IMG/VR virus record: IMGVR_UViG_3300042516_005475
Span: 1 to 64,000 of that record
Length of the DNA stretch: 64,000 nt
From: a virus
Reading direction: 5' to 3' (one strand)
Positions 4,265-59,656 of this stretch are shown here, in pieces. The position numbers and the translations under genes were made by a program. Below the pieces are notes generated by a model. That model searched no databases. It had not been told where the DNA came from and was given only the letters and a program-made list of their open reading frames with translations. Positions within the stretch are counted from its first letter, which is position 1. Each line of letters starts with the position of its first letter.

Positions 4265-6076
4265 TTAGGTTGGTAGTGCAGAAGCTTCAGCGCCTGGAGC
4301 TGGTGTTGGAGCTGCTCCACCTTCTGGTGCAGTACCTGGAGCAGGAGCCTCTCCACCCTCAGCGCCAGGTAAAGGAGTAAAGGCTGGAGGAGCTCCTCCA
4401 CCACCCATACCACCACCCCCACCACCAAAGCCAGCAATCTGACCTTCAGCGGAGGTAGGCTCGGCTTGTTTTTGTTCCCAATCAGGGCCTGTGTTAACAA
4501 TTTGAGCGAGCTCCCATTTCAATCCAGCATCTTTCTTTAACCATTCTCTGTTAGCCTTGATATCAACATCAGACCAACCCAAGTACTTCTTCATGGCAAA
4601 AGAAGTAGAGAACATTTCATTAGAAGATACTTGACCGAAGTTAGCAAATTTTAATTCAAGAATCTGGTTCTGTCTTAGTTCGTAATAATTTGTTGGTGGT
4701 ACAAATTCAAGCTGAACATCACTCTCTGCAATATCATAGGTTTCAAGCAAACCTTTTAGCTTGAGCTGAGTAATAAAGGCTGGACGTAAACCAGCAGCAA
4801 ATGTTCTTTGCAATCTAATAATAAAGTTAGCAAACTTTAGCTCTTCTCTTAAGATAGTTGCAGAATCATTAGTAGTATCTTCTGGGTTAAGTCTTGTTAC
4901 AGGTACCTTAAGAGCCTTATAAAGCTTCTTAATAAAATAGTTTAAGTCATCTAACTGGCCTAGATTCTGACCTGCAGCTAATGTTGTAACAGTTGTACCT
5001 TCACCACCTTGTCTCTTAGCAAACCAGAAAGCATCCATCATTGATTGTGGATTATAAGTCAAAACTGGTGAGCCGTTGTAAGCATCATAGCTCTTTTTGC
5101 TCCAGAAGTTATTCATCAACTTCTTTAAGTAAGCCTCAGCTTTTGGCTTAGGCATATCACCAACATCAACATTAAACACCAATCTCTCAGGAGCTCTAAC
5201 TAAACGATAAATGATAATAGAATCTTCAATCAAAGATAATTGACGATAGGCTCTTCTAGCATTTTCAATGAATGGTACACGAATAGTCTTTGATTGATTC
5301 CAAATACCAGAATTAATATACATAATCTGGTTCTTTTCCATTGGAATTAATTCAAATTTACCAGTAGTAGATTGTCTCTTGCTAGCCTCTGTCTTTGAAT
5401 TTCCAGCAAAAGGTTTGCGGAGCAAAAACCCTTTAATCAAAAGATTCTGTACATTTTCATATACTGGATCGATTAGTTCGCATGGAATGTTAATAAAGCC
5501 AAGAATACCTTTGTCTGGTTCTTTTTGACTTACAACATTTTCGAAATATAACTCACCATCCATTAAGAGCATTCTAATATACTCCCAACCTTTGCTTTCA
5601 AGATCTAGCTTCTGTAAGAACTTTTGTAGCTCTTTATTAATAATAGTTGAAACTTTTTCATCGTGTTGAAAGTTACGTAAATTAAGCTTTACTATCTCGT
5701 TATGCTCATCTTTATTAAGAAATGAATCACAAATTTCATCTAGAGCATCAGCTACCTCAGCAAACTGAGCCATGATTCTGTATTCAAGCAAACGACGAGT
5801 CTTATCAAAGTCGACGTTAGCATACATGAACTGGCTATAGTTCTTATCAATAGTAATACCACCCATTGGGTGTGTATCCAGTTTTGGTGTTGAAACAGCC
5901 TGTCGGTTCAACATTTGGGCTTTATTTGAGCCCATTCCGTAAAACAATTTATATTTTGGGTTAATTACATCTAACGGATCGACATTATTCAAAGGGGATG
6001 TGTAAGGAAGCTTTGAATATATCATATTCATTACTTGACCCATTGTGTCGTTTTTTGATGAACCATCAATTGCCAT
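4265..6076 (-). CDS. 20: Portal vertex protein, gp20-like
   Basis: 603 residues. Dodecameric portal through which DNA enters and leaves the head. The segments RIMAQFAEVADALDEICDSF and RAPERLVFNVDVGDMPKPKA and the GQNLGQLDDLNYF/PVTRLNPED block are strongly characteristic of T4-like portals. The last ~65 residues are an added low-complexity Gly/Pro/Ala tail (GGGGGGMGGGG, then repeated PAPG). A late box lies five bases before the ATG. Confidence 0.95.
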   Translation of the reverse strand: MAIDGSSKNDTMGQVMNMIYSKLPYTSPLNNVDPLDVINPKYKLFYGMGSNKAQMLNRQAVSTPKLDTHPMGGITIDKNYSQFMYANVDFDKTRRLLEYRIMAQFAEVADALDEICDSFLNKDEHNEIVKLNLRNFQHDEKVSTIINKELQKFLQKLDLESKGWEYIRMLLMDGELYFENVVSQKEPDKGILGFINIPCELIDPVYENVQNLLIKGFLLRKPFAGNSKTEASKRQSTTGKFELIPMEKNQIMYINSGIWNQSKTIRVPFIENARRAYRQLSLIEDSIIIYRLVRAPERLVFNVDVGDMPKPKAEAYLKKLMNNFWSKKSYDAYNGSPVLTYNPQSMMDAFWFAKRQGGEGTTVTTLAAGQNLGQLDDLNYFIKKLYKALKVPVTRLNPEDTTNDSATILREELKFANFIIRLQRTFAAGLRPAFITQLKLKGLLETYDIAESDVQLEFVPPTNYYELRQNQILELKFANFGQVSSNEMFSTSFAMKKYLGWSDVDIKANREWLKKDAGLKWELAQIVNTGPDWEQKQAEPTSAEGQIAGFGGGGGGMGGGGAPPAFTPLPGAEGGEAPAPGTAPEGGAAPTPAPGAEASALPT

Positions 6077-19660: not shown

Positions 19661-20392
19661 TTAAACCTTGAGAGCTTTATTCCACAAGACCAATTGCAAT
19701 CGAGGACTAAAGTTAAAACCATGCTTCTTGCAAACCTCTGCTACCCAAGGAGCAACAGCATTATGCTCATCTCGAGAACCACAGCAAGGCATCAACCAAA
19801 TTTGATCTTCAGTAATACTAAAAGGTTTGATATACTTTTCGATAATCTCTTCAACATCACTATCTTTCTGCACAACAAACTTAAAGTAAGAGTAGATACT
19901 AGCGTGGTAAGCAATAACCTCTGGAACGTATCTCTTCTCTTCTGGATCTCCGTTAGTAGACAACTTAGGAGACACAGTAAAAGTAGCATTTATACTTTCC
20001 CAAAAACTTGAAGGATTAATCGTACAGTTAGTTTCAAAATCAATAACAGGATAGAAATCGAACTTTCTGAAAAAGGCTTCAATAAACTCAATCAAAGCCT
20101 TTTGCTGAATAAGAGGTTCACCACCAGTAATCTTAAGAACATGATTGCCTTTCAACTTATTTAGGTAATCATTATCTTCAAAGATCTTAAAGATCTCTTC
20201 AAAGGTTAGCTTATTCTTCTTAGACCAGCTAACATAGCTATCACAACCAAACGGAGAATCAGGAGACTTAAACCCGATGCAAGTCAAGTTGCACATTGCC
20301 AATCGCATGAAGATGCTTGGCTTACCAACCAAATGACCTTCACCTTCGATAGTTTCAAAGACAAAGTCATCAGAGAGAAATAATGAACTCAT
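19661..20392 (-). CDS. queE: 7-carboxy-7-deazaguanine synthase (QueE-like radical SAM enzyme)
   Basis: 243 residues. QueE turns 6-carboxytetrahydropterin into CDG. The N-terminal TIEGEGHLVGKPSIFMRLA and KITGGEPLIQ are the SAM/substrate motifs of QueE. The Fe-S cysteines are spaced CNLTCIGFKSPDSPFGC, that is C-x3-C-x11-C rather than the usual C-x3-C-x2-C, as if an insertion separated the third ligand. Lies 30 bases downstream of queD in an apparent operon, with folE divergent nearby. Confidence 0.87.
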   Translation of the reverse strand: MSSLFLSDDFVFETIEGEGHLVGKPSIFMRLAMCNLTCIGFKSPDSPFGCDSYVSWSKKNKLTFEEIFKIFEDNDYLNKLKGNHVLKITGGEPLIQQKALIEFIEAFFRKFDFYPVIDFETNCTINPSSFWESINATFTVSPKLSTNGDPEEKRYVPEVIAYHASIYSYFKFVVQKDSDVEEIIEKYIKPFSITEDQIWLMPCCGSRDEHNAVAPWVAEVCKKHGFNFSPRLQLVLWNKALKV

Positions 20393-20422: not shown

Positions 20423-21139
20423 TCAAGCCCATTTAGTACCAAAGTCCCAGGTACTAGGACGATTCTTACCACCGACTGGAACCCCTTGCGGAGGAGCATC
20501 AGTCTGCTTAGGGGTAACCCTAACTGGTTTATTTGTGTCATAAGCCAAGGCTTCAGTCTGCTTTTCAGACTTAGCAGGCGGAGCCCAGACAGGTTCAGCA
20601 GTCTTACCCTTCTTGCCTTTGCCTTTAGCAGGCGCAGCCTCAGCTTCATCAGCAACTTCTGCTGTAGATTCTTGAGCAGTTTCAGCAGAATAAATAGCAG
20701 AGTTCTTCTCATGCTCAAACACCTCAACAGAATGAGCTCGAACTCGACCGCTAGTCTTATGCTTCACGTAGCTATCTGCAGCATTAAAGCAATACTTTGC
20801 AAACAACTCAATTCCAACCCCTTCATCCATAACAACGATTGAGGCAGCTCCAGCCTTTTCAAGAGCCTCAAACTCTTTCATAGCAGGGTCATTCTTAGCA
20901 AGAACGAGAGTATGATCAAACTTCTCCTGCAAGAATCCCTTCAATTCGTCAAAGTCTCCGAAGTCAACAACCCAATTGTTGCCGTCAAGAGAATCAGAAG
21001 TAAACGTAAATTTACCAACCAATCGATAACCATGAATGAATCTGCAATGGGACTTTGCATTAGGCTGACGAAATGCAGCACTTCCGAGTTCAATAACCTT
21101 CGTGGAATAATATCTCATACTCAGATATGTTATGAACAT
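20423..21139 (-). CDS. queD: 6-carboxytetrahydropterin synthase-like (QueD) with long C-terminal tail
   Basis: About 238 residues. The core (first ~145) has FRQPNAKSHCRFIHGY, NWVVDFGDFDELKG and KFDHTLVLA, the QueD/PTPS pattern. The usual AxH of the first zinc ligand appears as AAF and HGH as HGY, so metal binding differs from bacterial QueD. The last ~95 residues are a low-complexity Ala/Glu/Lys/Pro tail ending STWDFGTKWA. The ATG at 21139 is chosen because AGGA stands five bases before it; 21118 is an alternative. Confidence 0.8.
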   Translation of the reverse strand: MFITYLSMRYYSTKVIELGSAAFRQPNAKSHCRFIHGYRLVGKFTFTSDSLDGNNWVVDFGDFDELKGFLQEKFDHTLVLAKNDPAMKEFEALEKAGAASIVVMDEGVGIELFAKYCFNAADSYVKHKTSGRVRAHSVEVFEHEKNSAIYSAETAQESTAEVADEAEAAPAKGKGKKGKTAEPVWAPPAKSEKQTEALAYDTNKPVRVTPKQTDAPPQGVPVGGKNRPSTWDFGTKWA

Positions 21140-21157
21140 TTTTCCTAGAATCAAGCC

Positions 21158-21185
21158 TTGACTTGAACGAATTTGTCTCTATAAT
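21158..21185 (+). promoter_or_regulatory. Sigma70-like promoter of folE
   Basis: TTGACT, 16-base spacer, perfect TATAAT, then six bases to the ATG at 21192. Predicted +1 is the A of ATG. Confidence 0.7.
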
Positions 21186-21191
21186 AGGCGT

Positions 21192-21848
21192 ATGAATGAT
21201 GAGATTAGAGAGAAAGATTACCTCCTCCCGACTGCTAACAGTTCTATGGCTTTGACAGAAGAGCAAAAGCTTGCTATTATCGACAAGGGTGCTAAGGCAT
21301 ATGAGACTTTTTTGGATGCTCTTCGCATTGACTGGCGTAATGATCCGAATAGCGCAGGTACTCCTCGACGTGTTGCAAAGTCGTACGTGTTTGATTTAAT
21401 CTCTGGGTGCTATGAGGCTCCGCCGAAGATTACTTCTTTTCCTGCTGATGGTTATGATGGCATCGTCTCTCAGACGAATATTCCGTTGACTAGTATGTGT
21501 AGCCATCACCATTTGGCCTTTACTGGATTGGTGCATGTTGCTTATATTCCTAGTCTTGAAGGTCGTGTTATTGGCTTGAGTAAGCTCAATCGTATTGTTG
21601 AGTTTTATGGTCGTCGACCTCAGATTCAAGAAGGTTTGACGATGCAGATTCATAAGGCTATTAACGAGGTCTGCGAGCATAACAAGGGTGTTGCAGTTGT
21701 TGTTAAGGCTCAGCATACTTGTGCTTGTAATCGAGGTGTGAGACATCAAGGTTGTTATATGGTTACATCTAAGCTGTCTGGAGACTTCTATGATGACGAG
21801 AAGACTCGCAAGGAGTTTTACGACTTTATTAAAATGGCTGAAGAGTAG
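21192..21848 (+). CDS. folE: GTP cyclohydrolase I
   Basis: 218 residues. Makes dihydroneopterin triphosphate, the entry to folate and 7-deazaguanines. SMCSHHHLAFTGLVHVAYIP holds the zinc Cys and catalytic His; AQHTCACNRGVRHQGC carries the second zinc Cys and GTP-binding residues. Length matches the family. With queD, queE and queC in the same window it most likely feeds DNA base modification. Confidence 0.93.
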   Translation: MNDEIREKDYLLPTANSSMALTEEQKLAIIDKGAKAYETFLDALRIDWRNDPNSAGTPRRVAKSYVFDLISGCYEAPPKITSFPADGYDGIVSQTNIPLTSMCSHHHLAFTGLVHVAYIPSLEGRVIGLSKLNRIVEFYGRRPQIQEGLTMQIHKAINEVCEHNKGVAVVVKAQHTCACNRGVRHQGCYMVTSKLSGDFYDDEKTRKEFYDFIKMAEE

Positions 21849-21880
21849 TCTTTCTACCTGGCTGCAGTAAATAATACTGT

Positions 21881-22417
21881 ATGTCAGGCGCATTTGAACA
21901 TAAAATTTTAACTGTTAGTCAGTCAAAGCAAGCCGGTCTTCTTGGCCCAGCGAAAATCGCTGCTAGTAAACCCGATACAGGTGTTACTATAGTCAAGAAG
22001 TCGGCTTATTTTGTTATTAGGGATTGTGCAAAAATTACTGAAAAGTATCTCGTACACCATGTTTGGGGTGAAATTAAAAACCCCATTGATAGGCTCGAAG
22101 GAGCATTTACCAGAGCTGAAATTGAAGATTTCTTATCTAGAGCCAAAAGAGATACTGAAACACAGCAATTGTGTTCTGTAATTCTAGAAGACATTCATAA
22201 GAAGAATAAGCTTGAAAATACAGGCATTGTATCTCCTGTAGCTGATGCTCCGGTAGTTAAATTTGACTTTACCGAATTTGAGAATGATAAGATTTATGGT
22301 GATTATGATACTGGCGCTCCACAAGCAGACGTTGTAGAAATTCCAACTGGGGTGTTACCAGAAAAAGAAAAGTCAACTTATGAGCTATTTCTTGAAGCCT
22401 TTAAACCTAAGTTATAA
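21881..22417 (+). CDS. Unknown 178-aa protein
   Basis: Not recognised. N-terminal half is basic and mixed alpha/beta (TVSQSKQAGLLGPAKIAASK, FVIRDCAKIT, VHHVWGEIKNPIDRLEG); the C-terminal third is acidic and linker-like. AGTAAATA, a weak late-type box, precedes the ATG by seven bases. It ends eight bases before the tubulin-like gene, so the two may be co-expressed. Confidence 0.6.
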   Translation: MSGAFEHKILTVSQSKQAGLLGPAKIAASKPDTGVTIVKKSAYFVIRDCAKITEKYLVHHVWGEIKNPIDRLEGAFTRAEIEDFLSRAKRDTETQQLCSVILEDIHKKNKLENTGIVSPVADAPVVKFDFTEFENDKIYGDYDTGAPQADVVEIPTGVLPEKEKSTYELFLEAFKPKL

Positions 22418-22420
22418 ATA
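22413..22420 (+). promoter_or_regulatory. Late promoter box of the tubulin-like gene
   Basis: Perfect TATAAATA, five bases before the ATG at 22426, overlapping the stop codon of the upstream gene. Confidence 0.7.
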
Positions 22421-22425
22421 AAATT

Positions 22426-23532
22426 ATGAGTGATGATACATCTTTCGATATGGAGTTGCCAGACATTCCAATGCCTGGTCAAGAAATTAATACCGACATT
22501 GAAGACAAGATACAAGTAGGGTTTAAGTTTAGCTTTGTTGGAGCTGGTCAAGGTGGTTCAAGAATCGCTGAAACCTTTCACAAGCTTGGCTACAAGAGAA
22601 CCTGTGTGCTTAATACCGCTCAGCAAGACTTGGCAACAATTGAAGTTCCAAACAAGCTTAAGATTGGTACTGATTCTGGAGCAGGTAAGAATAGAGAAGT
22701 TGCTAAACAGGCTTTAATTGAACAGAGAGAAGATGTTCTTGATCTATTCAGAAAGTCTTTTGCTGGTAACTTTGATCGTATTTTTGTTTGCGCTGGTGCT
22801 GGTGGTGGTACTGGTTCTGGAACAACAACTGAGCTAATTAAGATTGCTAAAGACTACCAAGATTCAATTAAATCTACTTCTGAAAAGGTTGGTGTATTTT
22901 TAGCCTTGCCAAAGAACACTGAAGGTAAGAAGTGTGCTGAGAACGCTCTTAAGACTTTAACTGAGGTTCTTGAGCTCGTAGATCAAGGAATTGTTTCTCC
23001 ATTGGTTATTATTGATAATGAGAAGATTAATACAATCTATCCAAGATTGTCTATTAATCAGTTCTGGAATACTTCTAACAACAGCATCTGTTCTCTATTC
23101 AATCTATTCAATAACATTATTACAAAGAACAGTAGCTATACTTCTTTTGATAATAAGGATTATAAGACAGTGCTTGATAGTGGTATTATTGTATTCGGTG
23201 CAACCCAAGTTACTCAATGGTCTGACGGTACTGAGATTTCTAAAGCTATGAGAGATAACCTCAAGAAGAATATCTTGTCTGGTGGCATTGATCTCGGTAC
23301 TGGTAACATTGCTGCTGCAGTTGTTGTTGGAGATTCAAATGCTCTTGACAATATTCCACAAGAGTATCTTGATCAGGCTTTTGAGCAGCTTACCCGTACA
23401 TTGAAAAACAACTCAACTGTACACCAAGGTATCTATAAAGGTAACAAGGCTGGCTTGAGTATCTTTACTGCAATCGGTGGTTTAGGTAAACCAACCGCTA
23501 AAATAGAAGAGCTTAAGAAGTTATCTACTTAG
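22426..23532 (+). CDS. Tubulin/FtsZ-superfamily GTPase
   Basis: 368 residues. After an acidic ~30-residue leader comes a complete FtsZ-type GTPase: T1 VGAGQGGSRIAETF (38-51), T3-like NTAQQDL (63-69), the tubulin signature AGAGGGTGSGTTTELIK (123-139), and a T7 synergy loop SFDNKDYKTVL (240-250) matching FtsZ NxDxxD. The catalytic acids are kept, so polymer-coupled GTP hydrolysis is expected. The C-terminal domain follows, but the FtsZ tail peptide that binds FtsA/ZipA is not seen. Phage tubulins (PhuZ) move or centre DNA and heads in some giant phages; here the perfect late promoter suggests a role in assembly rather than early takeover. That role is inference. Confidence 0.88.
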   Translation: MSDDTSFDMELPDIPMPGQEINTDIEDKIQVGFKFSFVGAGQGGSRIAETFHKLGYKRTCVLNTAQQDLATIEVPNKLKIGTDSGAGKNREVAKQALIEQREDVLDLFRKSFAGNFDRIFVCAGAGGGTGSGTTTELIKIAKDYQDSIKSTSEKVGVFLALPKNTEGKKCAENALKTLTEVLELVDQGIVSPLVIIDNEKINTIYPRLSINQFWNTSNNSICSLFNLFNNIITKNSSYTSFDNKDYKTVLDSGIIVFGATQVTQWSDGTEISKAMRDNLKKNILSGGIDLGTGNIAAAVVVGDSNALDNIPQEYLDQAFEQLTRTLKNNSTVHQGIYKGNKAGLSIFTAIGGLGKPTAKIEELKKLST

Positions 23533-24151
23533 CCTTGTTGAGGATGTCGAATAAAGTTTTGGCATCCTCTTCACTTGTACCAGGTGGCAATGCAGCTTTA
23601 AAAGCATAATAATCACCAGCTTTAGCAAGGGCTCTTACTTTAGAGCCCTTTACTGTTTTTACATCATTAGGATCTATTTTACCCGACATTGCTCTTTCAC
23701 CACCTAGAGAAACAACACCAACCTTAGTTCCATCTCTCATTGGAGTCTTAAATGTTTCTTCGTTATCAGCTTTACGATCACTACCGCTAATTATGCTTAC
23801 AATAGGGTATTTTAAAACGTTGTGTAAGTAACCTGCAGCATGTTGAGGGGTAGTAATTCTATCATTTTCAACAACGTTAATATCTGCGTAGTTTGGATTG
23901 GTTTTAAATACAGATAGCCTTGCTTTGTATGGAACAGGGTTCTTATCTCCCTTTTCACTTGGAGATAAGAATACATAGAAGTCTGCGTTATTTTTATCTG
24001 CGTATTCTTTAGCGAGTTTAATTAGGTAGTCATGACCAGCTGTTGGAGGATGCATTCTTCCAAATATAAAGTATGCAGCATCTTTCTTCTGCTTAGAGTT
24101 TAAGTCTGCATGAGTTACAACTGCCTCGTATATCTCATTAAAGGTTTTCAT
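23525..24151 (-). CDS. NMNAT/cytidylyltransferase-like nucleotidyltransferase with capsid-targeting-like N-terminus
   Basis: 208 residues. GRMHPPTAGHDYLI (32-45) is the nucleotide-binding (H/T)xGH motif; SIISGSDRK and VKGSKVRALAKAGD correspond to the later ISxTxxR-type motifs of adenylyl/cytidylyltransferases. The first residues, MKTFNEIYEAV, nearly copy the T4 internal-protein targeting signal MKTYQEFIAEA and contain an IYE|A cleavage site. An enzyme packaged in the head and injected, as T4 Alt is, is therefore likely. Substrate unknown. Overlaps the tubulin-like gene end to end by eight bases. Confidence 0.78.
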   Translation of the reverse strand: MKTFNEIYEAVVTHADLNSKQKKDAAYFIFGRMHPPTAGHDYLIKLAKEYADKNNADFYVFLSPSEKGDKNPVPYKARLSVFKTNPNYADINVVENDRITTPQHAAGYLHNVLKYPIVSIISGSDRKADNEETFKTPMRDGTKVGVVSLGGERAMSGKIDPNDVKTVKGSKVRALAKAGDYYAFKAALPPGTSEEDAKTLFDILNKAK

Positions 24152-24591
24152 TATTCGTCTCTAGTTTCAGCTGTATCTGTTTCAGATGGAATTTCAAGAA
24201 GACCAGCATCATCAATAACCTTCTTTAATACACCTAACATTTCTTCAGCGTTCTTGGCCGTTACTTTCTTAGTGAGTAAATTGGTTTGAAATCCACTAAG
24301 ATCAACTGTATTAGGATCTAACCAGAAGGCTTTTTTTATCAGGTTAATGAGATAGATTACACCTTCTGGGGTTGGTGTTTTATCTTCTTCCTCTTCTGGC
24401 TCGTCATCAATAGGAGTAGTTGCGTCTTGTGGCATTGGCATATCACCTGTTGCCAATGACTGTGGTCCTTCAGGAGCATCTCCAATTTGAGGAGAAGAAG
24501 GAATTGCGACACCACCTTCACCCTGTTCATTAATTTGAAGAAGGTATTTTACAACGGTAGCGTCAAAGGATGATATATTAGGCTTGGGCAT
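24151..24591 (-). CDS. Acidic putative head protein
   Basis: 146 residues, unrecognised. N-terminus MPKPNISSFDATVVKYLLQI is followed by NEQG (I-x-E site), then an acidic Pro/Glu linker (DDEPEEEEDKTPTPEG) and a helical C-terminal domain (LTKKVTAKNAEEMLGVLKKV). One-base overlap with the nucleotidyltransferase gene and 14-base overlap with the upstream gene suggest one late transcript. Confidence 0.6.
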   Translation of the reverse strand: MPKPNISSFDATVVKYLLQINEQGEGGVAIPSSPQIGDAPEGPQSLATGDMPMPQDATTPIDDEPEEEEDKTPTPEGVIYLINLIKKAFWLDPNTVDLSGFQTNLLTKKVTAKNAEEMLGVLKKVIDDAGLLEIPSETDTAETRDE

Positions 24592-25039
24592 AGCTTACTC
24601 TTGGTCTATTTGGATTGTTTAAGGTTTCAACGTTATCGCTTACTACTGTCTTTGAAAGATTGGCTTCTTTATCTACATCCGGATTTAAGGAATTAACATT
24701 ACCAGTCTTCTTAATCTTACTCATGGTCTTTATCTTAGCAACAATTTCTTGCTCAGGCTGAGTCAAAGGCTTACCTACAGCTAGCTTGTTAATTGTAGTT
24801 CTGATATCACCTTCATTGTCCTGAAGTTGTAATCTTGCAATAGATCTTGGTGTACCAGCTCTAATTTTTGTCTTGTCAATATCTTGTTCTAAATCACCTG
24901 CATCCATCATACCTGGCAATGGTCTAATAGGGCTAGCATTAGGATTAATACCTGTATTGCCTGATTGGCCGAAAGTACCTGCTGACGAATACTCAAGAAG
25001 ACTGTAGTATTTGTTAAGAGTTTCCTCAAATTTACTCAT
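24578..25039 (-). CDS. Putative internal head protein with targeting-like N-terminus
   Basis: 153 residues from the ATG at 25039; a perfect TATAAATA box five bases upstream decides this start over one seven codons earlier. It begins MSKFEETLNKYYSLLEYSSA (aromatic at 4, LLE|Y site). The rest is hydrophilic with short helices. No family recognised. Confidence 0.65.
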   Translation of the reverse strand: MSKFEETLNKYYSLLEYSSAGTFGQSGNTGINPNASPIRPLPGMMDAGDLEQDIDKTKIRAGTPRSIARLQLQDNEGDIRTTINKLAVGKPLTQPEQEIVAKIKTMSKIKKTGNVNSLNPDVDKEANLSKTVVSDNVETLNNPNRPRVSYAQA

Positions 25040-27227: not shown

Positions 27228-28666
27228 CGGTTTTAACCATTGATGTTGATAACAGACGTAATACTGCTTCTTTAAGTGGAGACTTTAAAGCAGTTAGAGA
27301 ACACTTCTCTATAAAAAATAAGACTGCTGTCTTTGCTCGTAAACGGGGTTTCTTTGCACCGGAAAGAACATATGTTATTACACCAACTGGTAGAATAGAA
27401 CCTCATTTCCATACTGTTCTTCAAAAATACGCTCAACAAAGTGAAGACCCAACTGAAATTGTCTTAACAGAGAGCTTTAAAAAGTTATTCTCACCCAAAT
27501 TAAAGCTAGACTACCTTGATAAGAAATTACGTCTTGATTTACGTGATTATCAAACCGATGTAGTCCAAACTGCTTTAAAATCTGGTTTTGGTATTATCGA
27601 GTTAGCAACCGCGGGTGGCAAGACTCTCATAATGTCTTCTATCCTAGAAAACATTTATCATCAAAACCCAAACTTTAAATGTCTTCTCATTGTGCCTGAT
27701 TTAGGTCTTGTTAATCAATCGTTTAATGACTTTAAAGATTATAACGTTAGCTTTACTTATAGTACTTGGACAGGTAGTTCTGAGTTGGATTTAAGTACAA
27801 ATGTAATTATTGCTAATATGGGTATCTTACAATCTGAGATATCCGATACTGAATGGACGGAAAGCGTTGATCTTCTCATTGTTGACGAGGTTCACAAAGT
27901 TCGTAGAGGCAATAAGATCAACGACATTATTAAAAAGATCTATACTATTCATAAGTTTGGCTTTACTGGTACCTTGCCTGAAGAGGTATTAGATCAATGG
28001 AATATTTTTGCTAAGTTTGGAGATAGAATTTATTCCAAGATGTCTCACGAGCTAAAGTCTGAGAGTTATGTTACTCCAGCCAAGGTAACTGCTCTTGTTA
28101 TTAATTATAAAACTGGCCCTCAATTTGAAAGAACTAAAGACAGCACACCAGCTGATGAGTATATTGCTGAGCTGAAGTTCTTGCTAACAAACGATTTTCG
28201 TAATGGGGTTATCAATCACCTAGTTAACAAGTTTGACAATAACTCTCTTGTTCTTGTGGACTTAATTGACCACGGTCAAGCCATTTATGATAAAATTACT
28301 ACAAGCTCTACTACTAAAGAGGTTTATTTCATCAGAGGTGAAGTAGAAGTAGAAGAACGTAAGAGAGTTCAGACCTTAATGGAGAAGCAAACTAACGTTT
28401 GTGTAATTGCTATCTCTAAAATATTTTCGACAGGTATTAATATCAAAAATCTTCACTATTTAATCTTTGCTGGAGGTGGAAAAGCGAAGGTAAAGATAGT
28501 ACAATCAATAGGTCGTGGATTACGATTACACGAAGATAAGAAAGAGCTTATCATTATTGACATTGCTGATAACCTAAAGTATGGCATGCAGCACTATCAA
28601 AAAAGAAAGCAGCTTTACAATCAAGAGAAAATACCACATACCTTTACTAACTGCCATGAAAAATAA
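27224..28666 (+). CDS. uvsW: Recombination/branch-migration helicase, UvsW-like
   Basis: 480 residues. Superfamily 2 motifs: LRDYQTD (Q-like), LATAGGKTLI (Walker A), LIVDEVHKV (DEVH box), GFTGTLPE (motif III), IFSTGINIKNL and QSIGRGLRLH (motifs V and VI). An N-terminal domain of ~110 residues precedes the helicase, as in T4 UvsW. It unwinds R-loops and branched recombination intermediates and so turns off early origins. In operon with uvsY and gene 55. Confidence 0.92.
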   Translation: MTVLTIDVDNRRNTASLSGDFKAVREHFSIKNKTAVFARKRGFFAPERTYVITPTGRIEPHFHTVLQKYAQQSEDPTEIVLTESFKKLFSPKLKLDYLDKKLRLDLRDYQTDVVQTALKSGFGIIELATAGGKTLIMSSILENIYHQNPNFKCLLIVPDLGLVNQSFNDFKDYNVSFTYSTWTGSSELDLSTNVIIANMGILQSEISDTEWTESVDLLIVDEVHKVRRGNKINDIIKKIYTIHKFGFTGTLPEEVLDQWNIFAKFGDRIYSKMSHELKSESYVTPAKVTALVINYKTGPQFERTKDSTPADEYIAELKFLLTNDFRNGVINHLVNKFDNNSLVLVDLIDHGQAIYDKITTSSTTKEVYFIRGEVEVEERKRVQTLMEKQTNVCVIAISKIFSTGINIKNLHYLIFAGGGKAKVKIVQSIGRGLRLHEDKKELIIIDIADNLKYGMQHYQKRKQLYNQEKIPHTFTNCHEK

Positions 28667-29162
28667 TTTACCAAAAATTAAGAAACCTGAAACCTTTGTG
28701 ATGGATCCAACATCCAAGCCACCCAAAGAACAATTTTACGTTGATCCTAAAGAGTTTTATAGGCAGATAAAAGACTATTATAAGAGCGGAGAAATAAACG
28801 ATTATTTGGCAGAATCTATCTATAAGATTGCAAAAGGTCTTTCTTACGCACCTAATTTTATTAATTATTCTTATCGAGACGACATGGTTGGTGATGCTGT
28901 CGTAAAGATGTATACAGCCCTAAAGAATAAGAAGTTTAACGTTAAGACCAAGGATAAAAACGGCTACAATTATAACCCGTTTAGTTACTTTACAACCATT
29001 GCATTCCACGCATTTATCACTAGAATTAAGAAAGAAAAGAAAGAGAAAGACACTATAGCCCTTTATCAAGAAGCGCAGTTTAGAGAGGCTATGCAATCCT
29101 TACCTAACGGTGATTGTGTTTATATCGATCCTGACAGGGAAGATAATTATAACGAAGCCTAG
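28656..29162 (+). CDS. 55: Late promoter-recognition sigma factor, gp55-like
   Basis: 168 residues from the ATG at 28656 (MKNNLPKIKKPETF), overlapping uvsW by 11 bases. YRDDMVGDAVVKMYTALKNK and YNPFSYFTTIAFHAFITRIK match region 2 of gp55, the sigma-like subunit that makes host RNA polymerase recognise TATAAATA boxes. These boxes are abundant in this window, so the factor and its targets are both visible. Confidence 0.9.
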   Translation: MKNNLPKIKKPETFVMDPTSKPPKEQFYVDPKEFYRQIKDYYKSGEINDYLAESIYKIAKGLSYAPNFINYSYRDDMVGDAVVKMYTALKNKKFNVKTKDKNGYNYNPFSYFTTIAFHAFITRIKKEKKEKDTIALYQEAQFREAMQSLPNGDCVYIDPDREDNYNEA

Positions 29163-37594: not shown

Positions 37595-37600
37595 GTGTGT

Positions 37601-38311
37601 ATGAGTAAGTGTGTAATTCCTGTTAGTGGTGGCATTGATTCAACGGTCATGCTTTATGATGCTGCTGCATCTAAGACCTATTCAGATATCTTCGCGATTA
37701 GTTTTTATTACGGTCAGCGTCATGCTACGAATGAGCTGGCTTGTGCAACTAAATCTGTTAATACTTTAAAGGAAAAGTACCCAGAGATTAATATCTATCA
37801 CCGAAACATTGATCTAAGCTTCTTTGGTGAGATTGCTATTAGCTCTTCAATTACCAATAATGATATTGCTGTTGCTCAGACTAAAGATGTTCTTGGTGAT
37901 CCACAGCCGGTTAATTATGTACCGTTTCGTAATCTAATGATGCTTTCTATTCTCTGCTCTTTTGCAGAGGCTCATGGTGCTCGAGATGTTTACTATGGTA
38001 GTGCTCTTGTTGATTCTCAGGCTGGGTATTGGGACTCTAGTAATGAATTCTACTTGAATCTCGCTTCTGTTATTGGTCTCAATCGTAAGAATAAGATTTC
38101 TATTATTACACCGTTGATTAAGCTTGATAAGAAAGATATTATCAAGTTAGGTGATGAGCGTGGGGTTGACTTTAAGAGTACCTGGACTTGTTATGAAGGT
38201 AAAGAACAAGCCTGTGGATATTGTCCAGCCTGCTCTAGTCGAATCAAAGGCTTTATGGATTATATGATGGTTGACCCTATTGAATACAGCCGAAAGATTA
38301 AATTTATCTAA
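37601..38311 (+). CDS. queC: 7-cyano-7-deazaguanine synthase, QueC
   Basis: 236 residues from the ATG at 37601. QueC uses ATP and ammonia to turn CDG into preQ0. PVSGGIDSTVML is the PP-loop, FYYGQRH follows, and the zinc-binding C-terminus TWTCYEGKEQACGYCPACSS carries four Cys. NYVPFRNLMML is also diagnostic. The amidotransferase gene follows after one base, so the two are probably translated together. Confidence 0.94.
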   Translation: MSKCVIPVSGGIDSTVMLYDAAASKTYSDIFAISFYYGQRHATNELACATKSVNTLKEKYPEINIYHRNIDLSFFGEIAISSSITNNDIAVAQTKDVLGDPQPVNYVPFRNLMMLSILCSFAEAHGARDVYYGSALVDSQAGYWDSSNEFYLNLASVIGLNRKNKISIITPLIKLDKKDIIKLGDERGVDFKSTWTCYEGKEQACGYCPACSSRIKGFMDYMMVDPIEYSRKIKFI

Positions 38312-43865: not shown

Positions 43866-44429
43866 ATGAACAATCAGGATGAACCAATCGATCAAGAAGC
43901 TATTTATGCTATTGCACACTTAGCTGGGCAGGCAGCTAGTGAGCTTAAGGCTCTAGATAAACTAGCGCTTGGTTCTAGTCCTAACATGAAAGGATTACAA
44001 TTTGAACCTCAAGAACTTATTCGCCAGAATTTTTTACCAAGGATGCAGGCTAATGGAGCTCCTCCTGCATCCGCAAACCCTAATTATCGCATGCGTGCAC
44101 CAGCTCCTCGACCACCATTCCAGCCACCTCAACATCAACACCCACCACAGCAAATGATGCAACCACCCCCTCAGCAAATGATGCACCCTCAACCAGCGCA
44201 ACAGGCCCCTCAAGTCTTTGCTGGGGTAGCTCCTAATATTTCAGAAGCTCAGATTTCATTGTTGATGGAGAAGTTGCTTAGAGTTGAGCGTTTGCTTGAT
44301 TCTTGTGTTAGTGGTCAAGAACGTCTGCAAACAACTCTTGATAAGAGCTTGGAAAAGTTGTTGCAAAAGAAAATGAAAGACATTAAAATTACGTTCAAAG
44401 ATGACAATACCGATTCACAACAAGAATGA
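43866..44429 (+). CDS. Pro/Gln-rich linker protein with C-terminal coiled coil (unknown)
   Basis: 187 residues from the ATG at 43866. N-terminal helix, then a low-complexity P/Q/M/H stretch (residues ~75-120, PPQQMM repeats), then a helical coiled coil (LMEKLLRVERLLDSCVSGQE). Overlaps gene 45 by 29 bases. Not recognised; possibly a clamp- or replisome-associated scaffold by position only. Confidence 0.6.
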   Translation: MNNQDEPIDQEAIYAIAHLAGQAASELKALDKLALGSSPNMKGLQFEPQELIRQNFLPRMQANGAPPASANPNYRMRAPAPRPPFQPPQHQHPPQQMMQPPPQQMMHPQPAQQAPQVFAGVAPNISEAQISLLMEKLLRVERLLDSCVSGQERLQTTLDKSLEKLLQKKMKDIKITFKDDNTDSQQE

Positions 44430-45138
44430 ATTTGTTGACAAGTTTCTTACTCCCTTGTCTCGAATTAATAACTCCTGCTCATTACATCTCAAGGGTGATA
44501 AGCTAACGGCTCTAGTTGCTACTCCAGATGCATCAGTTATTTTGAATGCTGTCTGGAAGTTTAGTGATGATATTTCTGAAGAGAATAAGCTTAACATTCC
44601 AGACATTAATAAGTTTATTAAGGTTCTTGATTGTATCAGAGAAGATTATCTTTCTCTTAAGATTAACTCTAATAACATTAGTTACAATGAGAAGGGTATT
44701 AAGTTTAAGTATCATCTTCTTGAAGATGGTATTTTGTCTACTCCTGCTATTAACATTGAAAAGGTAAAGGCCTTGAAGTATGATACTGAGTTTAATATTG
44801 CTGGTCCTGACTTGCAATCATTGATCAAGAGCTCTACCTTTGCTTCAGAGACTGATAAGCTTTACATTAGAACGGGTGAAGGAATTGTTTACAGTGAGTT
44901 GACTGATAAGAACAAGTCTAATGTTGATTCTATTGAATTAGTATTGTCTCCAGAGTTCTCTGGTTCTGAGATTGATAATCCATTGGCTCTTAGCTTTGAG
45001 ATTATTCGTATTGTATCATGCAATCGCTTTGGTAATGTATCAACAAAGATTAATACTAACCTTGGAGTTTTGCTTTTTGAGCTAAATAATGATAACGTTG
45101 AACTCATCTATGTCGCATCAGGATTGGCAGAAACCTAA
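44401..45138 (+). CDS. 45: Sliding clamp, gp45-like
   Basis: 245 residues (T4: 228). FVDKFLTPLSRINNSCSLHL, an internal LDCIREDYLSLKI, and LLFELNNDNVELIYVASG at the end show the two-domain processivity-fold pattern. Forms the trimeric ring that tethers gp43 and activates late transcription with gp55. Gene 44 is not adjacent and not found in this window. Confidence 0.82.
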   Translation: MTIPIHNKNEFVDKFLTPLSRINNSCSLHLKGDKLTALVATPDASVILNAVWKFSDDISEENKLNIPDINKFIKVLDCIREDYLSLKINSNNISYNEKGIKFKYHLLEDGILSTPAINIEKVKALKYDTEFNIAGPDLQSLIKSSTFASETDKLYIRTGEGIVYSELTDKNKSNVDSIELVLSPEFSGSEIDNPLALSFEIIRIVSCNRFGNVSTKINTNLGVLLFELNNDNVELIYVASGLAET

Positions 45139-52958: not shown

Positions 52959-52979
52959 AAATAGTTTTAAATATTTATA
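52956..52979. promoter_or_regulatory. Overlapping divergent late promoters
   Basis: CATAAATA on the plus strand (52956-52963) 15 bases before the terminase ATG, and TATAAATA on the minus strand (52972-52979) 13 bases before the ATG at 52958. Each box overlaps the start of the opposing gene. Confidence 0.5.
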
Positions 52980-55741
52980 TGCCAGCCGAAGAAAATTACT
53001 ACTTAGGTAATAAAAATCTCCCCAAACCAGACACACAGTTCGATTGGACTCCGGAAATGCTCGAGCATTTGGAGAGAAGCCGTGATGATATTTTATATTT
53101 TGCCCAAACGTTCTTCTTTATTATCAACCTAGATAAAGGTAAACAGCTAATTAAACTGCATCCTTGTCAATTAAGAGTGCTAAAAACACTAGATGATGAG
53201 AGATTCGTATCTTTGCTAGCCTCCCGTCAATCTGGTAAAGCTTTAGCGCTTGATACACCTATACCTACCCCTAATGGTTGGACTACTATGGGTGATTTAA
53301 AGGCTGGGGATAAAGTTTATAGTAGTTCAGGACAACCTTGTAATGTTGTTATGGCTCATGAAATTCTTCATAATAGAAATTGTTATGAAGTTGAATTTGA
53401 TAACGGGGAAAAAATCGTTGCAGATGAAGAGCATTTATGGTTCACTCAATCAAGAACCGAACGAAGCAAAGATATTAGTGGTTCTGTAAAAAATACTAAA
53501 CAGCTTTTTGAGACGCTAACCTCCGGTAACAAAAAGAAAGAACCTAATCACAGAATACAAGTAAATGTAAATGGTGTTTGTGGAGAACACAAAGATTTAT
53601 TAATCGATCCTTATGTTCTTGGTTTATGGTTAGGTGATGGTAGTTCTAACTCCTCAGTTATTACTGTTGGTAAGAGAGACATTCACGATTTAATTGATAT
53701 ATTAAATACTCAGCACAAGCAATTTAATAAGATTATTTTAAATGAGTATAATAAAAGTGTATATAGTTTAAGATTGACTGTTGAAGATAAGGTTAAGACT
53801 AAATGTTTAAGCACCCTTTTAAATATAGCGAATTTAAAAGATAATAAACATATACCTGCAGAATATTTGTTAGCTAGCAGAGCACAGCGTTTAGAGTTAT
53901 TAAAGGGTCTTATAGATTCAGATGGTTATATTGATTCGAGAGGCAATGCTAACTTTTACAATACAAACATTGATTTGGTTAAACAGGTAAAGAAGTTAGT
54001 TGAAAGCTTAGGCTACAAGGTAACCTTTAAAACTTTTATACCAAAATTAAAAGGGGTAGAGTGTAAGGAATGTGGTGTTCTGTATTTTAAGCCTATAGAA
54101 TATGTTTGTAAACTAGCGTTTAAAAAAAATAGAATAAAAATTAAAGAGGATATTAATGATTCTAAGCTTAGAAATCAGTGGCATTACATAAAAAATATTA
54201 AATCTATTGACTCTGTTCCAGTAAGATGTATAACAGTCGATAGTGTTGATAGTTTATACTTGTGTGGAAATCAGTATATACCCACTCATAACACGACTCT
54301 AATGACAATCTATGCTCTTTGGATTGCATGCTTCAACAAGGATAAGAGGGTACTTGTTGTAGCAAACAAAGAGAAGACAGCGATTAACATCTTTCGTCGT
54401 ATCCGCACAGCCTATGAGATGTTACCGAACTACTTAAAACCGGGTGTTAAAGAGTATGGTAAAACATCTATAACCCTAGAAAATGATTCATCAATTGGTA
54501 TTTCGACTACAAGTTCAGATGCTGGTCGTGGTGATTCCGTAAACGTTCTAATCCTGGATGAGTTAGCATTCATTCCAAATAACATTGTTGATAAGTTCTG
54601 GAAATCAGTATACCCAATTATTTCTTCATCCAAACAATCTAAGATCTTCGTTGCTTCTACTCCTAATGGTACGAAGAATTTATTCTATGATTTGTATTCT
54701 GGAGCCATGGAGGGTAAGAACGGTTGGGCAGCAGAGCGCATTGATTGGTGGGAAATACCTGGTAGAGATGAAGTTTGGAAGCAAAATACAATCAGAGAGA
54801 TTGGTAGTGAAGAAACTTTCAATCAAGAGTTCGGCAACGAATTTATTGAAGTTGGAGAGAGTACTCTTTCAGACAAATTATACGAATTTCTTAAATCAAA
54901 TGTAGCTCCACCTTTGCATATATTCGATGACGGAGCATATAAGATGTGGGAGAATCCAAACAAGGCTAGCCTGTATGTTATAGGTGTAGATGTCGCTGAG
55001 GGTGTAGGTCAGAATGCTAGCTCAATAGAAGTATTTGACATTACAGATTTAGGAAACATTAGACAAGTAGCAGAGTATTGCAACAATAATATCAATCCCT
55101 ACACGTTCACTCAAAAGATCAATCAGATATGTAAGCATTGGGGTTCTCCTCCGGTTTTGATTGAGCGTAATAATCATGGTGGTGGTGTTTGTGATAACCT
55201 TAAAAACGAATACAACTACACGAAGATTGTAACCTATACCGTAAAAGCTGGCAAGCTACATTTTGACAGACCTGGTATTCATTCTCATACAAACACCAAG
55301 TACAAGTGTATGACCAATATGAGATATTGGTTGAATGAAACAATGAGAGTTAAGATTAAATCTGTTGATTTGCTCAACGAATTAAAGAGCTTCACCCGTA
55401 ACAAGAACGGTACTTGGAGTGCTAGATCTGGTGAGTTAGATGACAGAGTAATGGGTATGGCTTGGGCCTTAATTATTCTAGACAGAGAAGTTTGTGAGAA
55501 GTATTTTGAAGTTTTAGAGTTCGATAAGAATCAAAAACCATTCAAAATTAGGAGATTAAGCTATTCTCAACCAGGAGAGTTTGTTGATGATTTTGGCATA
55601 TTAACTAATAGAAAGATTGCTCAAAATGATGGAGAAGAAGACTTTAACGAAATGCCTTCTTTCTTTACTAACTTTGGTAATGAGCCAGAAAATCCAGAAA
55701 TGGATGATTTAATTTCACAAGGATGGGAGCGTTGGGGATAA
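52979..55741 (+). CDS. 17: Large terminase, gp17-like, interrupted by an intein
   Basis: 920-residue precursor; 569 residues after splicing (T4: 610). Extein motifs: HPCQLRVLKTL, Walker A SRQSGK|TT rejoined across the intein, Walker B NVLILDELAFI, coupling VASTPNG, and nuclease acids VIGVDVAEG and DDRVMGMAWAL. It is the ATP-driven packaging motor and headful nuclease. The intein (residues 88-438) splits the Walker A Lys-Thr bond, so the motor should be inactive until splicing. Shares a divergent late promoter with the head-type gene upstream. Confidence 0.95.
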   Translation: MPAEENYYLGNKNLPKPDTQFDWTPEMLEHLERSRDDILYFAQTFFFIINLDKGKQLIKLHPCQLRVLKTLDDERFVSLLASRQSGKALALDTPIPTPNGWTTMGDLKAGDKVYSSSGQPCNVVMAHEILHNRNCYEVEFDNGEKIVADEEHLWFTQSRTERSKDISGSVKNTKQLFETLTSGNKKKEPNHRIQVNVNGVCGEHKDLLIDPYVLGLWLGDGSSNSSVITVGKRDIHDLIDILNTQHKQFNKIILNEYNKSVYSLRLTVEDKVKTKCLSTLLNIANLKDNKHIPAEYLLASRAQRLELLKGLIDSDGYIDSRGNANFYNTNIDLVKQVKKLVESLGYKVTFKTFIPKLKGVECKECGVLYFKPIEYVCKLAFKKNRIKIKEDINDSKLRNQWHYIKNIKSIDSVPVRCITVDSVDSLYLCGNQYIPTHNTTLMTIYALWIACFNKDKRVLVVANKEKTAINIFRRIRTAYEMLPNYLKPGVKEYGKTSITLENDSSIGISTTSSDAGRGDSVNVLILDELAFIPNNIVDKFWKSVYPIISSSKQSKIFVASTPNGTKNLFYDLYSGAMEGKNGWAAERIDWWEIPGRDEVWKQNTIREIGSEETFNQEFGNEFIEVGESTLSDKLYEFLKSNVAPPLHIFDDGAYKMWENPNKASLYVIGVDVAEGVGQNASSIEVFDITDLGNIRQVAEYCNNNINPYTFTQKINQICKHWGSPPVLIERNNHGGGVCDNLKNEYNYTKIVTYTVKAGKLHFDRPGIHSHTNTKYKCMTNMRYWLNETMRVKIKSVDLLNELKSFTRNKNGTWSARSGELDDRVMGMAWALIILDREVCEKYFEVLEFDKNQKPFKIRRLSYSQPGEFVDDFGILTNRKIAQNDGEEDFNEMPSFFTNFGNEPENPEMDDLISQGWERWG
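53240..54292 (+). mobile_element. Class 3-type intein with LAGLIDADG homing endonuclease
   Basis: 351 codons. Starts with Ala (ALALDTPIPTPNGWTTMGDL) instead of Cys/Ser and ends IPTHN before Thr+1. Block B ADEEHLWFTQ gives the Trp, VPVRCITVD the block F Cys, and PTHN the Thr: the W-C-T set of class 3 inteins, which splice through the internal Cys. Two endonuclease motifs, LGLWLGDGSS and LLKGLIDSDGYI, are intact. A CxxC (CKECG) lies between the endonuclease and the C-terminal splicing blocks. The DNA is visibly richer in TTA/AAT codons than the flanking extein, consistent with separate origin. Confidence 0.92.
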
Positions 55742-57157: not shown

Positions 57158-59656
57158 ATGCCAACACAAACTATAGAAAGTCCTGGTGTTCAGATTAATG
57201 AGGTAGATTTATCTCTTAGAGCAGTTGTTCCAAATGGTACTAATGTTTTGGTATTAGGTTACGCTAATCAAGGCCCGATTGAAGAGGTGCTTGAAATTCC
57301 TGATATTCAAACATTTACAACCATTTATGGAACTCCTACAAACGCAGCAGAAAGATACTTTTACTACTCAGTAAGAGGGGTTCTAAACGGAGGTGGTAGA
57401 CCCATCGTTTCCAGATTGCCTTACGGCTCTGGTACTGGTGTTGGTTCAACCTCAGCAAAATATAGCTGCTTAGCTTATCCGGCTGTTCCGTTTGCTCAAA
57501 CTTGCTTTGCTTTCAATTTATCAAGCACAGCAACATTTTCAACTGAACAATCTGGGTATTTTGTCGGTGCTCCTGAATATTTACAATTAACAGAAGATCA
57601 GTATTTGTCTATTTTACAGGGCAATATTAATTGGATTGACTCTTCTACTGTAAGTCAATTTGTAAGAACATCTGCTGGAGAATTTTCAACATTTGCAAAT
57701 TTAGCTTCTGCTGGTTTTCTTGTTCTAAATAAGTTCCAATCAACATTTGATAACAAGTCTCTTGAAGGATATACAATTGGCATTGCAGATAGCTTAGATA
57801 CTGACCCACAATCAGATTTTAATAGTGTTACATCAATTAAATACTCTCCGCTTAATGAGACTCATACTAACTATGGTGAGTATTTAACAATTCCAAGTTC
57901 TAGACTTAACTTTGTACTTGAATCTGGTGCAACAAGCAATATTCCATCTGTTTCTCGTCAAATTGAGCAACAAGATCCAAATATTAACTTGTTCCAGGGA
58001 GCATTTATTGATTCAATTAGCTTAAGAATTGCTAAATTAAGACAATCAATTTACACACCACAGGCTGTAACATTGGATTACACTTTCCCTGATGGATTCT
58101 TAGGTTCTTTCAATAGCAGAAGACAAGTACAATCTCAAAACGGTGGACAGCCAGTCAACTTCTTCGTTGGAGATGTTGAGGATAGTTCAACTTATATCTC
58201 TATTATTGTAAACCCAAATATCTCAACTGTTTCTGGTGATTGGACAAATGCTGCCGGTAAACCTAGTAAGTTTGTTCTCTTCAACCATTCTACAAGCGGT
58301 ACTGTAGCTAAAACAGAGCAAGTAAAGAACAATGCTGCTTTTGCTAATACTCCATTATTCGGTAATGGTTTGTCAGCATGGGTAACTCCAGCTTCTGGAT
58401 CCTTATATGCTAATATTGAAGCATATTTAAATGCATTCTTATTCCCGGTAGATGCTCTTTATAGCTATTGCCCAACAATCCTTAACAGTACAGTTAACGG
58501 TGCTACTACATTCGCAATTGGTAACGCTCCAGCTAAGATTGATAGAGTATTCCAAACAATTGATGATGTTGATGCATTGAGAATCGACTTGTCTGTTGAA
58601 GCAGGTTTGGGTACAATGTATTCAATTTGCAATACGCTAAGTTCACCATCTGCTCAGTTGCAGGCATTTGATGATACAGTTGTTGTTGATATTGGTGCTA
58701 CTGTTAGCGGTCAAACATCAACAGGCTTCTATCGTACAAATGGCAATCTTGATGCAGATACGCTTTCTGCTACAGTTCCAGGAGTAGGGTCTGCACCATT
58801 CACTTATAAGGCTCAGGATTTGAAGAACAATTACTTGGCTGTATATGAAGTGTTTAGAACATTTGCTCAGGATGTGAGAAAAGATCACTTGTTCATTGCT
58901 GATGCTCTACGCCCTATCTTTATTACAGGTGCTAGAACAAAAGTTCTTTCTAACAGAAATAATACTTTTACTCAGCACATTAATACACCGTTGAGAAATC
59001 AATTTGATACAACAAGCACAAGTTATGCTACAGTTTACGGTAACTGGGCCTTGGTCAATGATTTAACTTCTGGTGATAATGTTTGGATTCCAGTCTCTGG
59101 TTTAATTGCCGGTATGATGGCCAAGGATGACGCTAACTACGCTCCATGGTTCGCACCAGCAGGCTTTACAAGAGGTAAGTTCCCAACACCAGTGCTTGAT
59201 ATTGCAGTATCTCCAAGCCAACGCAACAGAGACTTGCTCTACAAGCAGGGTATCAATCCAATTACTAAGTTCCCTAACGACGGTATCACAGTATTCGGTC
59301 AAAAGACTAAGTTGTCAACACCTTCAGCCTTTGACAGAATCAACGTTAGAAGATTGTTCTTGTATTTGGAGAAGGTTACAAGAACAACACTTAAGTACTT
59401 CGTATTCGAGCCTAACACGCTCTTTACAAGAACAAATGTTGTTAACGTTCTCAATCCAATTTTTGAGAATGTCAAGAACAATCAGGGTATGTATGATTAC
59501 CTCATCGTTTGCGATGCAAGAAATAACACCCCAACTGTAATTGACAACAATCAATTGGTTGTAGACATTTACATCAAGCCTACTCGCTCAGCTGAGTTCA
59601 TCTTGGTAAACTTCTACGCAACTAGAACAGACCAAAACTTCAACGAGTTAGTCTAA
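57158..59656 (+). CDS. 18: Tail sheath protein, gp18-like
   Basis: 832 residues (T4: 659). ESPGVQINEVDLSLRAVVPN and GYANQGPIEEV at the N-terminus are typical of contractile sheath subunits; the conserved C-terminal domain contains DDANYAPWFAPAGFTRG, VLDIAVSPSQRNRDLLYKQG, NPITKFPNDGITVFGQKT and NVRRLFLYLEK. The extra length lies in the middle, surface-facing domains (roughly residues 90-480). Confidence 0.95.
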   Translation: MPTQTIESPGVQINEVDLSLRAVVPNGTNVLVLGYANQGPIEEVLEIPDIQTFTTIYGTPTNAAERYFYYSVRGVLNGGGRPIVSRLPYGSGTGVGSTSAKYSCLAYPAVPFAQTCFAFNLSSTATFSTEQSGYFVGAPEYLQLTEDQYLSILQGNINWIDSSTVSQFVRTSAGEFSTFANLASAGFLVLNKFQSTFDNKSLEGYTIGIADSLDTDPQSDFNSVTSIKYSPLNETHTNYGEYLTIPSSRLNFVLESGATSNIPSVSRQIEQQDPNINLFQGAFIDSISLRIAKLRQSIYTPQAVTLDYTFPDGFLGSFNSRRQVQSQNGGQPVNFFVGDVEDSSTYISIIVNPNISTVSGDWTNAAGKPSKFVLFNHSTSGTVAKTEQVKNNAAFANTPLFGNGLSAWVTPASGSLYANIEAYLNAFLFPVDALYSYCPTILNSTVNGATTFAIGNAPAKIDRVFQTIDDVDALRIDLSVEAGLGTMYSICNTLSSPSAQLQAFDDTVVVDIGATVSGQTSTGFYRTNGNLDADTLSATVPGVGSAPFTYKAQDLKNNYLAVYEVFRTFAQDVRKDHLFIADALRPIFITGARTKVLSNRNNTFTQHINTPLRNQFDTTSTSYATVYGNWALVNDLTSGDNVWIPVSGLIAGMMAKDDANYAPWFAPAGFTRGKFPTPVLDIAVSPSQRNRDLLYKQGINPITKFPNDGITVFGQKTKLSTPSAFDRINVRRLFLYLEKVTRTTLKYFVFEPNTLFTRTNVVNVLNPIFENVKNNQGMYDYLIVCDARNNTPTVIDNNQLVVDIYIKPTRSAEFILVNFYATRTDQNFNELV

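Follow-up and report, generated by a model that had tools for sequence, protein, structure and literature searches.

A tubulin-superfamily GTPase gene behind a late-type promoter box in a T4-like phage: an apparently undescribed viral family with a possible role in head assembly or packaging

The DNA analysed here (the window) is a stretch of 64 kb at the start of a 230,047-base metagenomic IMG/VR record, which may be incomplete. The ORF at positions 22426-23532 (plus strand; start codon ATG, stop codon TAG) encodes a protein of 368 amino acids, which is a tubulin/FtsZ-superfamily GTPase with a complete set of nucleotide loops, as the initial annotation had it. The Pfam model Tubulin (PF00091) scores 64.7 bits with the protein, against a curated cut-off of 33 (E = 1.8e-17), and PF22453, the model of the TubZ-type C-terminal domain, scores 26.7 bits, barely above its cut-off of 26. 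The best sequence matches in PDB are RepX/TubZ (4ei7; 2e-16) and FtsZ (2r6r; 2e-15). All three loops claimed from the sequence are found: T1, GAGQGGS (residues 39-45; 22540-22560, plus strand); T4, the tubulin signature GGGTGSG (residues 126-132; 22801-22821, plus strand); and T7, the synergy loop, SFDNKD (residues 240-245; 23143-23160, plus strand). That inventory of motifs was correct as far as it went, but a conserved N-terminal motif (see below) had been overlooked. The phage protein can be aligned with FtsZ and TubZ over the T1, T3, T4, T6 and T7 loops.

An AlphaFold2 model, for which 27 related viral sequences served as input, has a pLDDT of 89 and a pTM of 0.88, with disorder restricted to residues 1-20. 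The structure search that had been proposed for this protein returned TubZ (Foldseek TMq up to 0.80), CetZ (0.74) and FtsZ (about 0.67) and, more weakly, viral PhuZ-type models of BFVD (0.52-0.61). Both aspartates of T7 (D242 and D245) are unchanged in 27 viral relatives, down to 27% identity, and the gene is under very strong purifying selection, dN/dS amounting to 0.027-0.032 in comparison with relatives at 95-98% identity. The tubulin gene of one viral contig (L007, 1292-2479) has some 28 amino acids duplicated in tandem and in frame, which may be an assembly artefact.

The phage is T4-like, as had been claimed: the record includes genes of the T4 kind for gp55, UvsX, UvsY, gp41, gp32, gp45, gp43, tube, sheath and terminase, as well as a T4-type portal gene (4265-6076; phrog_213, 1e-107). 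A late sigma factor similar to gp55, which is expected to recognise the late promoter boxes, is encoded at 28581-29162 (plus strand; phrog_234, E = 7.8e-27), and a sliding clamp similar to gp45, in T4 a co-factor of late transcription, at 44401-45138 (plus strand; phrog_223, E = 2.7e-8). The DNA polymerase from the window shares no more than about 33% identity with those of annotated phages, and searches for defence families returned no match. The terminase large subunit (52979-55741; 920 amino acids) contains an internal LAGLIDADG homing-endonuclease domain (an intein or similar insert), while in the tail sheath protein (57158-59656; 832 amino acids) the matches to the sheath domain are confined to the C-terminal residues 614-822. 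Genes for GTP cyclohydrolase I (21192-21848) and a QueC-like protein (37595-38311) occur along with a QueE-like ORF recognised by eye (19661-20392), a set that possibly specifies a 7-deazaguanine pathway for DNA modification. The tubulin gene itself lies outside the head operon, between a gene of 178 codons (g21881; 21881-22417, plus strand) and a convergent gene block.

Directly ahead of the tubulin gene is a T4-type late promoter box, TATAAATA (22413-22420, plus strand), the last A of which occupies position -6 relative to the ATG; it contains the stop codon of the preceding gene. By number, a single copy is near chance (13 in the window; 7.3 expected), and a fortuitous occurrence was plausible on that raw count; it is ruled out by the position of the boxes, which are locked to gene starts. 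Among the 203 genes of at least 100 amino acids in the record, ATAAATA ends 4-14 nt ahead of the ATG in 38, where 0.9 would be expected from the upstream background, and ends exactly at -6 in 21 of these, including the tubulin gene. The box-bearing genes include those for sheath (57158) and portal (4265); replication and metabolic genes, among them folE, uvsY and uvsX, have TATAAT-like boxes close to the ATG instead. In near relatives the box is kept as [TC]ATAAATA, or changed to CATAAATA or TTAAATA, at fixed spacing in variable surroundings, and the first T of the late box is known to be poorly conserved among T4 relatives (PMC1524935). In a second T4-like lineage (L154, L155, L161, L167 and L177), with tubulins 55-60% identical, ATAAATA ends exactly at -6 in all five contigs; there, no overlap with an upstream stop codon forces the box, as one may do in the window.

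The T4 late box occupies positions -13 to -6 relative to the transcription start (PMC1524935), so that with 5 nt between box and ATG the tubulin mRNA would, by T4 rules, start at the ATG itself. Throughout the record, late (ATAAATA) and early-type (TATAAT) boxes alike are situated some 6-8 nt ahead of the ATGs, and Shine-Dalgarno sequences are depleted (GGAG 2 times; 8.7 expected). Since both promoter classes are this near to the ATG, the arrangement predicts largely leaderless mRNAs in this T4-like phage. The "perfect" box noted initially is therefore real and conserved in relatives, but it is no single-gene feature: it belongs to a genome-wide arrangement of the leaderless type. With a box of the TATAAATA type at fixed spacing and a gp55 encoded in the same genome, the predicted late timing of the tubulin gene is well supported.

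Searching IMG/VR with a family alignment yielded 248 matching stretches, the best 80 of which were kept; among the loci retrieved, 120 distinct ones were left after merging identical places and were compared. Near relatives (78-100%) are on contigs with the same gene neighbourhood as in this phage, and an alignment with phage G added reached marine contigs at 50-60%. In 50,697 records of annotated phages, the sole true match was gp138 of phage G (26% identity). Two further matches labelled bacteriophage, MT836225 and MT837522 (L032 and L033), were rejected as bacterial contigs: they carry division genes (murC-ftsQ-ftsA-ftsZ-like) and are likely to be host DNA. In the tree, the viral proteins cluster separately from FtsZ, TubZ, phage G and PhuZ (support 95/97; 90/97 once long branches are removed), with the PhuZ of phiKZ outside it on a very long branch. 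The bootstrap support drops to 62 when proteins from bacterial metagenome-assembled genomes (MAGs; see below) are included; a tree that joins the family with FtsZ is not rejected (p-AU 0.10), and one that joins it with TubZ is borderline (0.04). The protein thus belongs to a large viral tubulin family of its own, which is apparently new to the literature and abundant in viral contigs from the sea and from fresh water. T4-type phages were initially said not to carry a tubulin normally; one is present here, but it is no one-off, as at least three T4-like lineages and a sizeable group of other marine phages carry relatives. A further, divergent group of viral tubulins (28-32% identity) occurs on contigs of up to 242 kb (L106, L108, L109, L111 and L112).

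Earlier reports describe a circular phage contig with an FtsZ homologue and without shell genes (PMC7452251), a few scattered large phages with tubulin (PMC11835377) and marine jumbo phages with tubulin and shell (PMC9123017), while the main text of a 2023 survey of FtsZ and tubulin does not mention phages, Phycisphaerae or Omnitrophota (PMC9871819). In the open-access papers searched, we found neither the family nor its late promoter and its association with head genes described.

Outside the near relatives, the tubulin gene is in many phages located close to genes for head and packaging proteins. In the second T4-like lineage, a T4-type terminase gene (52-56% identical to that of the window) is about 5.5 kb away in all four contigs that reach it. 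In a third (L101; tubulin 38% identical), a T4-type portal gene (phrog_213, 2.5e-97) lies downstream of the tubulin gene at a distance of about 2 kb, and a T4-type major head gene (phrog_138, 1.6e-90) at about 6 kb. Within 16 kb of this contig there are 12 copies of TATAAATA, where 2.9 are expected (0 of 200 shuffles), and one of them, together with a Shine-Dalgarno sequence, is ahead of the gene that precedes the tubulin gene. In marine phages that are not T4-like, genes for an ERCC4-type nuclease and the terminase large subunit (phrog_2, 2.7e-26) come first, followed by one other gene, F2 (630-710 amino acids; 45-100% identity), the tubulin gene, small genes, F4, F9 and F10. Of 92 informative marine contigs, 77 have F2 immediately ahead of the tubulin gene, and the locus includes the terminase in 48 of 59, counts that are not independent because of shared ancestry; two contigs without the terminase (L169 and L205) retain F2-tubulin-F4-F9-F10. 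Only the terminase is established by profile. From gene order, F2 is probably the portal protein, and F4, F9 and F10 would be protease/scaffold, decoration protein and capsid protein, respectively; F9 matches phrog_122 (0.012), F10 has weak capsid matches, and PHROG, Pfam and PDB gave no usable support for the portal or capsid identity of F2, F4 and F10. Such neighbourhoods imply common timing, not physical interaction, but they strengthen the role in head assembly or positioning that the initial annotation had suggested.

This location among head genes in marine phages, along with the late promoter, would also suit a structural or scaffolding component that is built statically into the particle or its assembly site and for which GTP would serve in folding or switching rather than dynamics. 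The entire catalytic site, including the T7 aspartates, is however under strong selection, and we regard a static part as very unlikely.

The gene adjoining the tubulin gene in the window and in close relatives, g21881, is preceded by a late-type box of its own (GTAAATA). It was considered as a dedicated partner of the tubulin and rejected, homologues being present in ten contigs without any tubulin gene, several of them T4-like. Its sequence has no Pfam or PHROG match and its model (pLDDT 72) no fold match in PDB, hence no resemblance to a DNA-binding fold. Its family (L122-L131) consists of late-type genes of T4-like phages without annotation; in L123 and L125, the gene is downstream of a homologue of the clamp-loader small-subunit-like gene of the window. 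A stretch IYGDYD is common to the C-terminal tail of g21881 and the N-terminal tails of the tubulins in L155, L161, L167 and L177.

The absence of a recognisable TubR-like protein beside the tubulin gene (g21881 having been examined by fold, Pfam and PHROG) bears on the idea that the tubulin segregates or positions DNA as TubZ does, either for a phage genome kept like a plasmid or by centring the replicating DNA. TubZ is the top sequence match in PDB, its fold scores highest and its C-terminal Pfam model is just passed, all of which would fit. On the other hand, there is no tubC-like array near the gene (no multi-copy repeat at 20800-24600), g21881 is unlike any DNA-binding fold in PDB and occurs without tubulin, and a late promoter and a head-gene neighbourhood are unsuited to maintenance in a dividing host; DNA segregation is thus an unlikely function.

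The disordered tail predicted for residues 1-20 holds the motif DMELPDIPMP (residues 8-17; 22447-22476, plus strand). While the tail varies in length and sequence within the family, the motif is kept, with a consensus of about D-x-x-x-P-[DE]-[ILM]-x-x-P (FDMELPDIPMPG here; IDVMVPDIPLPPE in marine phages). The strict pattern is found in 86 of 112 aligned rows. Of the others, two are fragments without the N-terminus and most have near variants, e.g., PEIPIP and PDILIPP; the second T4-like lineage has the most divergent form. No other protein of this phage contains the pattern. Judging from this conservation, the motif is a likely site of docking to a head or packaging protein.

The nearest cellular kin that we found are proteins with 35-39% identity, encoded at 14 loci (L140-L153) in MAGs of Phycisphaerae, other Planctomycetota and Omnitrophota; a scan of genome contigs with the single protein had returned nothing, and they were found with the family alignment. 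The genes are among ordinary chromosomal genes, e.g., those for ketol-acid reductoisomerase and signal peptidases, and several of the proteins have lysine-rich N-terminal tails. The L101 phage protein groups with them (support 96/93). FtsZ above the cut-off was not detected in eight of the nine MAGs with relatives, which may be incomplete, and Omnitrophota have been reported to be without FtsZ while otherwise keeping division genes (PMC5147048; PMC12283558). These relatives offer a starting point for work on the cytoskeleton and division of bacteria that reportedly have no FtsZ.

The initial annotation had also raised interference with host FtsZ. On this view, the phage protein would bind, cap or co-assemble with FtsZ and disturb division, giving longer cells and more progeny. 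The two proteins share a superfamily, the phage protein could in principle cap FtsZ through a similar surface, and the P-D-I-P in the N-terminal tail weakly recalls the D-I-P near the C-terminus of FtsZ (E. coli ...YLDIPAFLR). Yet a decoy would be expected to retain the interfaces of FtsZ, and this protein is about 20% identical to it and scores far under the FtsZ cut-off; it retains all residues for a polymer of its own, its promoter is late rather than early and most of the genomes that encode its closest cellular relatives have no detected FtsZ. Interference received no positive support, and we consider it distinctly improbable.

The reading that we prefer, at a probability of roughly one half, is that of a polymerising late GTPase for head assembly or packaging, akin to PhuZ in moving capsids but operating without a nucleus. 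From the computed fold, intact loops, purifying selection, late box and head-gene neighbourhood in other lineages, we infer polymerisation, timing, cargo and docking as follows. The gp55-type sigma factor would transcribe the tubulin gene alongside the late genes, from a promoter giving a leaderless mRNA. Subunits would join head to tail into a GTP-driven filament, each GTPase site being completed by the T7 loop of the neighbouring subunit. In the particle-building phase, the filament may gather, move or position procapsids, packaging complexes or both with respect to the replicated DNA, to which end the N-terminal motif would dock it to a head or packaging protein. T4 itself builds heads without tubulin.

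More tentatively, and with rather less confidence, the family as a whole may constitute a nucleus-independent cytoskeleton: widespread viral tubulins that recur beside terminase and head genes in tailed phages unrelated to one another. Their filaments would organise capsid assembly or packaging by way of the N-terminal docking peptide, and they would share ancestry with chromosomal tubulins of mostly FtsZ-less bacteria. To our knowledge, phage tubulins have been studied almost only as PhuZ, in nucleus-forming phages, and as TubZ, in plasmid-like partition. An apparently undescribed, predicted late tubulin family near head genes suggests that phage cytoskeletons probably extend beyond giant nucleus-forming phages, and because gene order and promoter class tie it to particle building, a role of phage cytoskeletons in capsid assembly or packaging becomes directly testable.

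Compared with known systems, the protein shares with FtsZ the GTPase core and the layout of the T7 loop, but it scores 80.7 bits with TIGR00065 (cut-off 295.2), is placed in a separate clade and ends in ...KIEELKKLST, without the FtsZ C-terminal peptide, as had been noted. Phage G gp138, annotated as FtsZ-like, groups apart, with a relative from L110. The Phycisphaerae and Omnitrophota proteins differ in their N-terminal tails and chromosomal neighbours. TubZ/RepX of Bacillus plasmids is the closest studied protein in both sequence and fold; nevertheless, identity is about 25%, the clade is separate and there is no long C-terminal tail of the TubZ type. Neither profile nor fold groups the protein with PhuZ: the PHROG PhuZ model matches part of it (E = 6e-4), and PhuZ fold matches are weaker than those of TubZ. 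The phages differ likewise, as the window's phage has neither a match to the nuclear shell nor one to the multisubunit RNA polymerase (searched with the Rpb2 domain 6 family). The shell was absent from the whole record of the window (G000) and from records L083, L090, L101 and L108 (the last being the one record checked of the divergent viral group) with a profile that recovered the phiKZ shell but, built on two sequences, could miss a very divergent one. The window's tubulin gene has a promoter of the late class; for PhuZ, by contrast, early expression is described (PMC8314001). What they have in common is a phage-encoded tubulin-superfamily GTPase in a genome of more than 200 kb; treadmilling PhuZ filaments transport procapsids late in infection (PMC8314001), and it is this transport that the proposed late role of the window's tubulin resembles.
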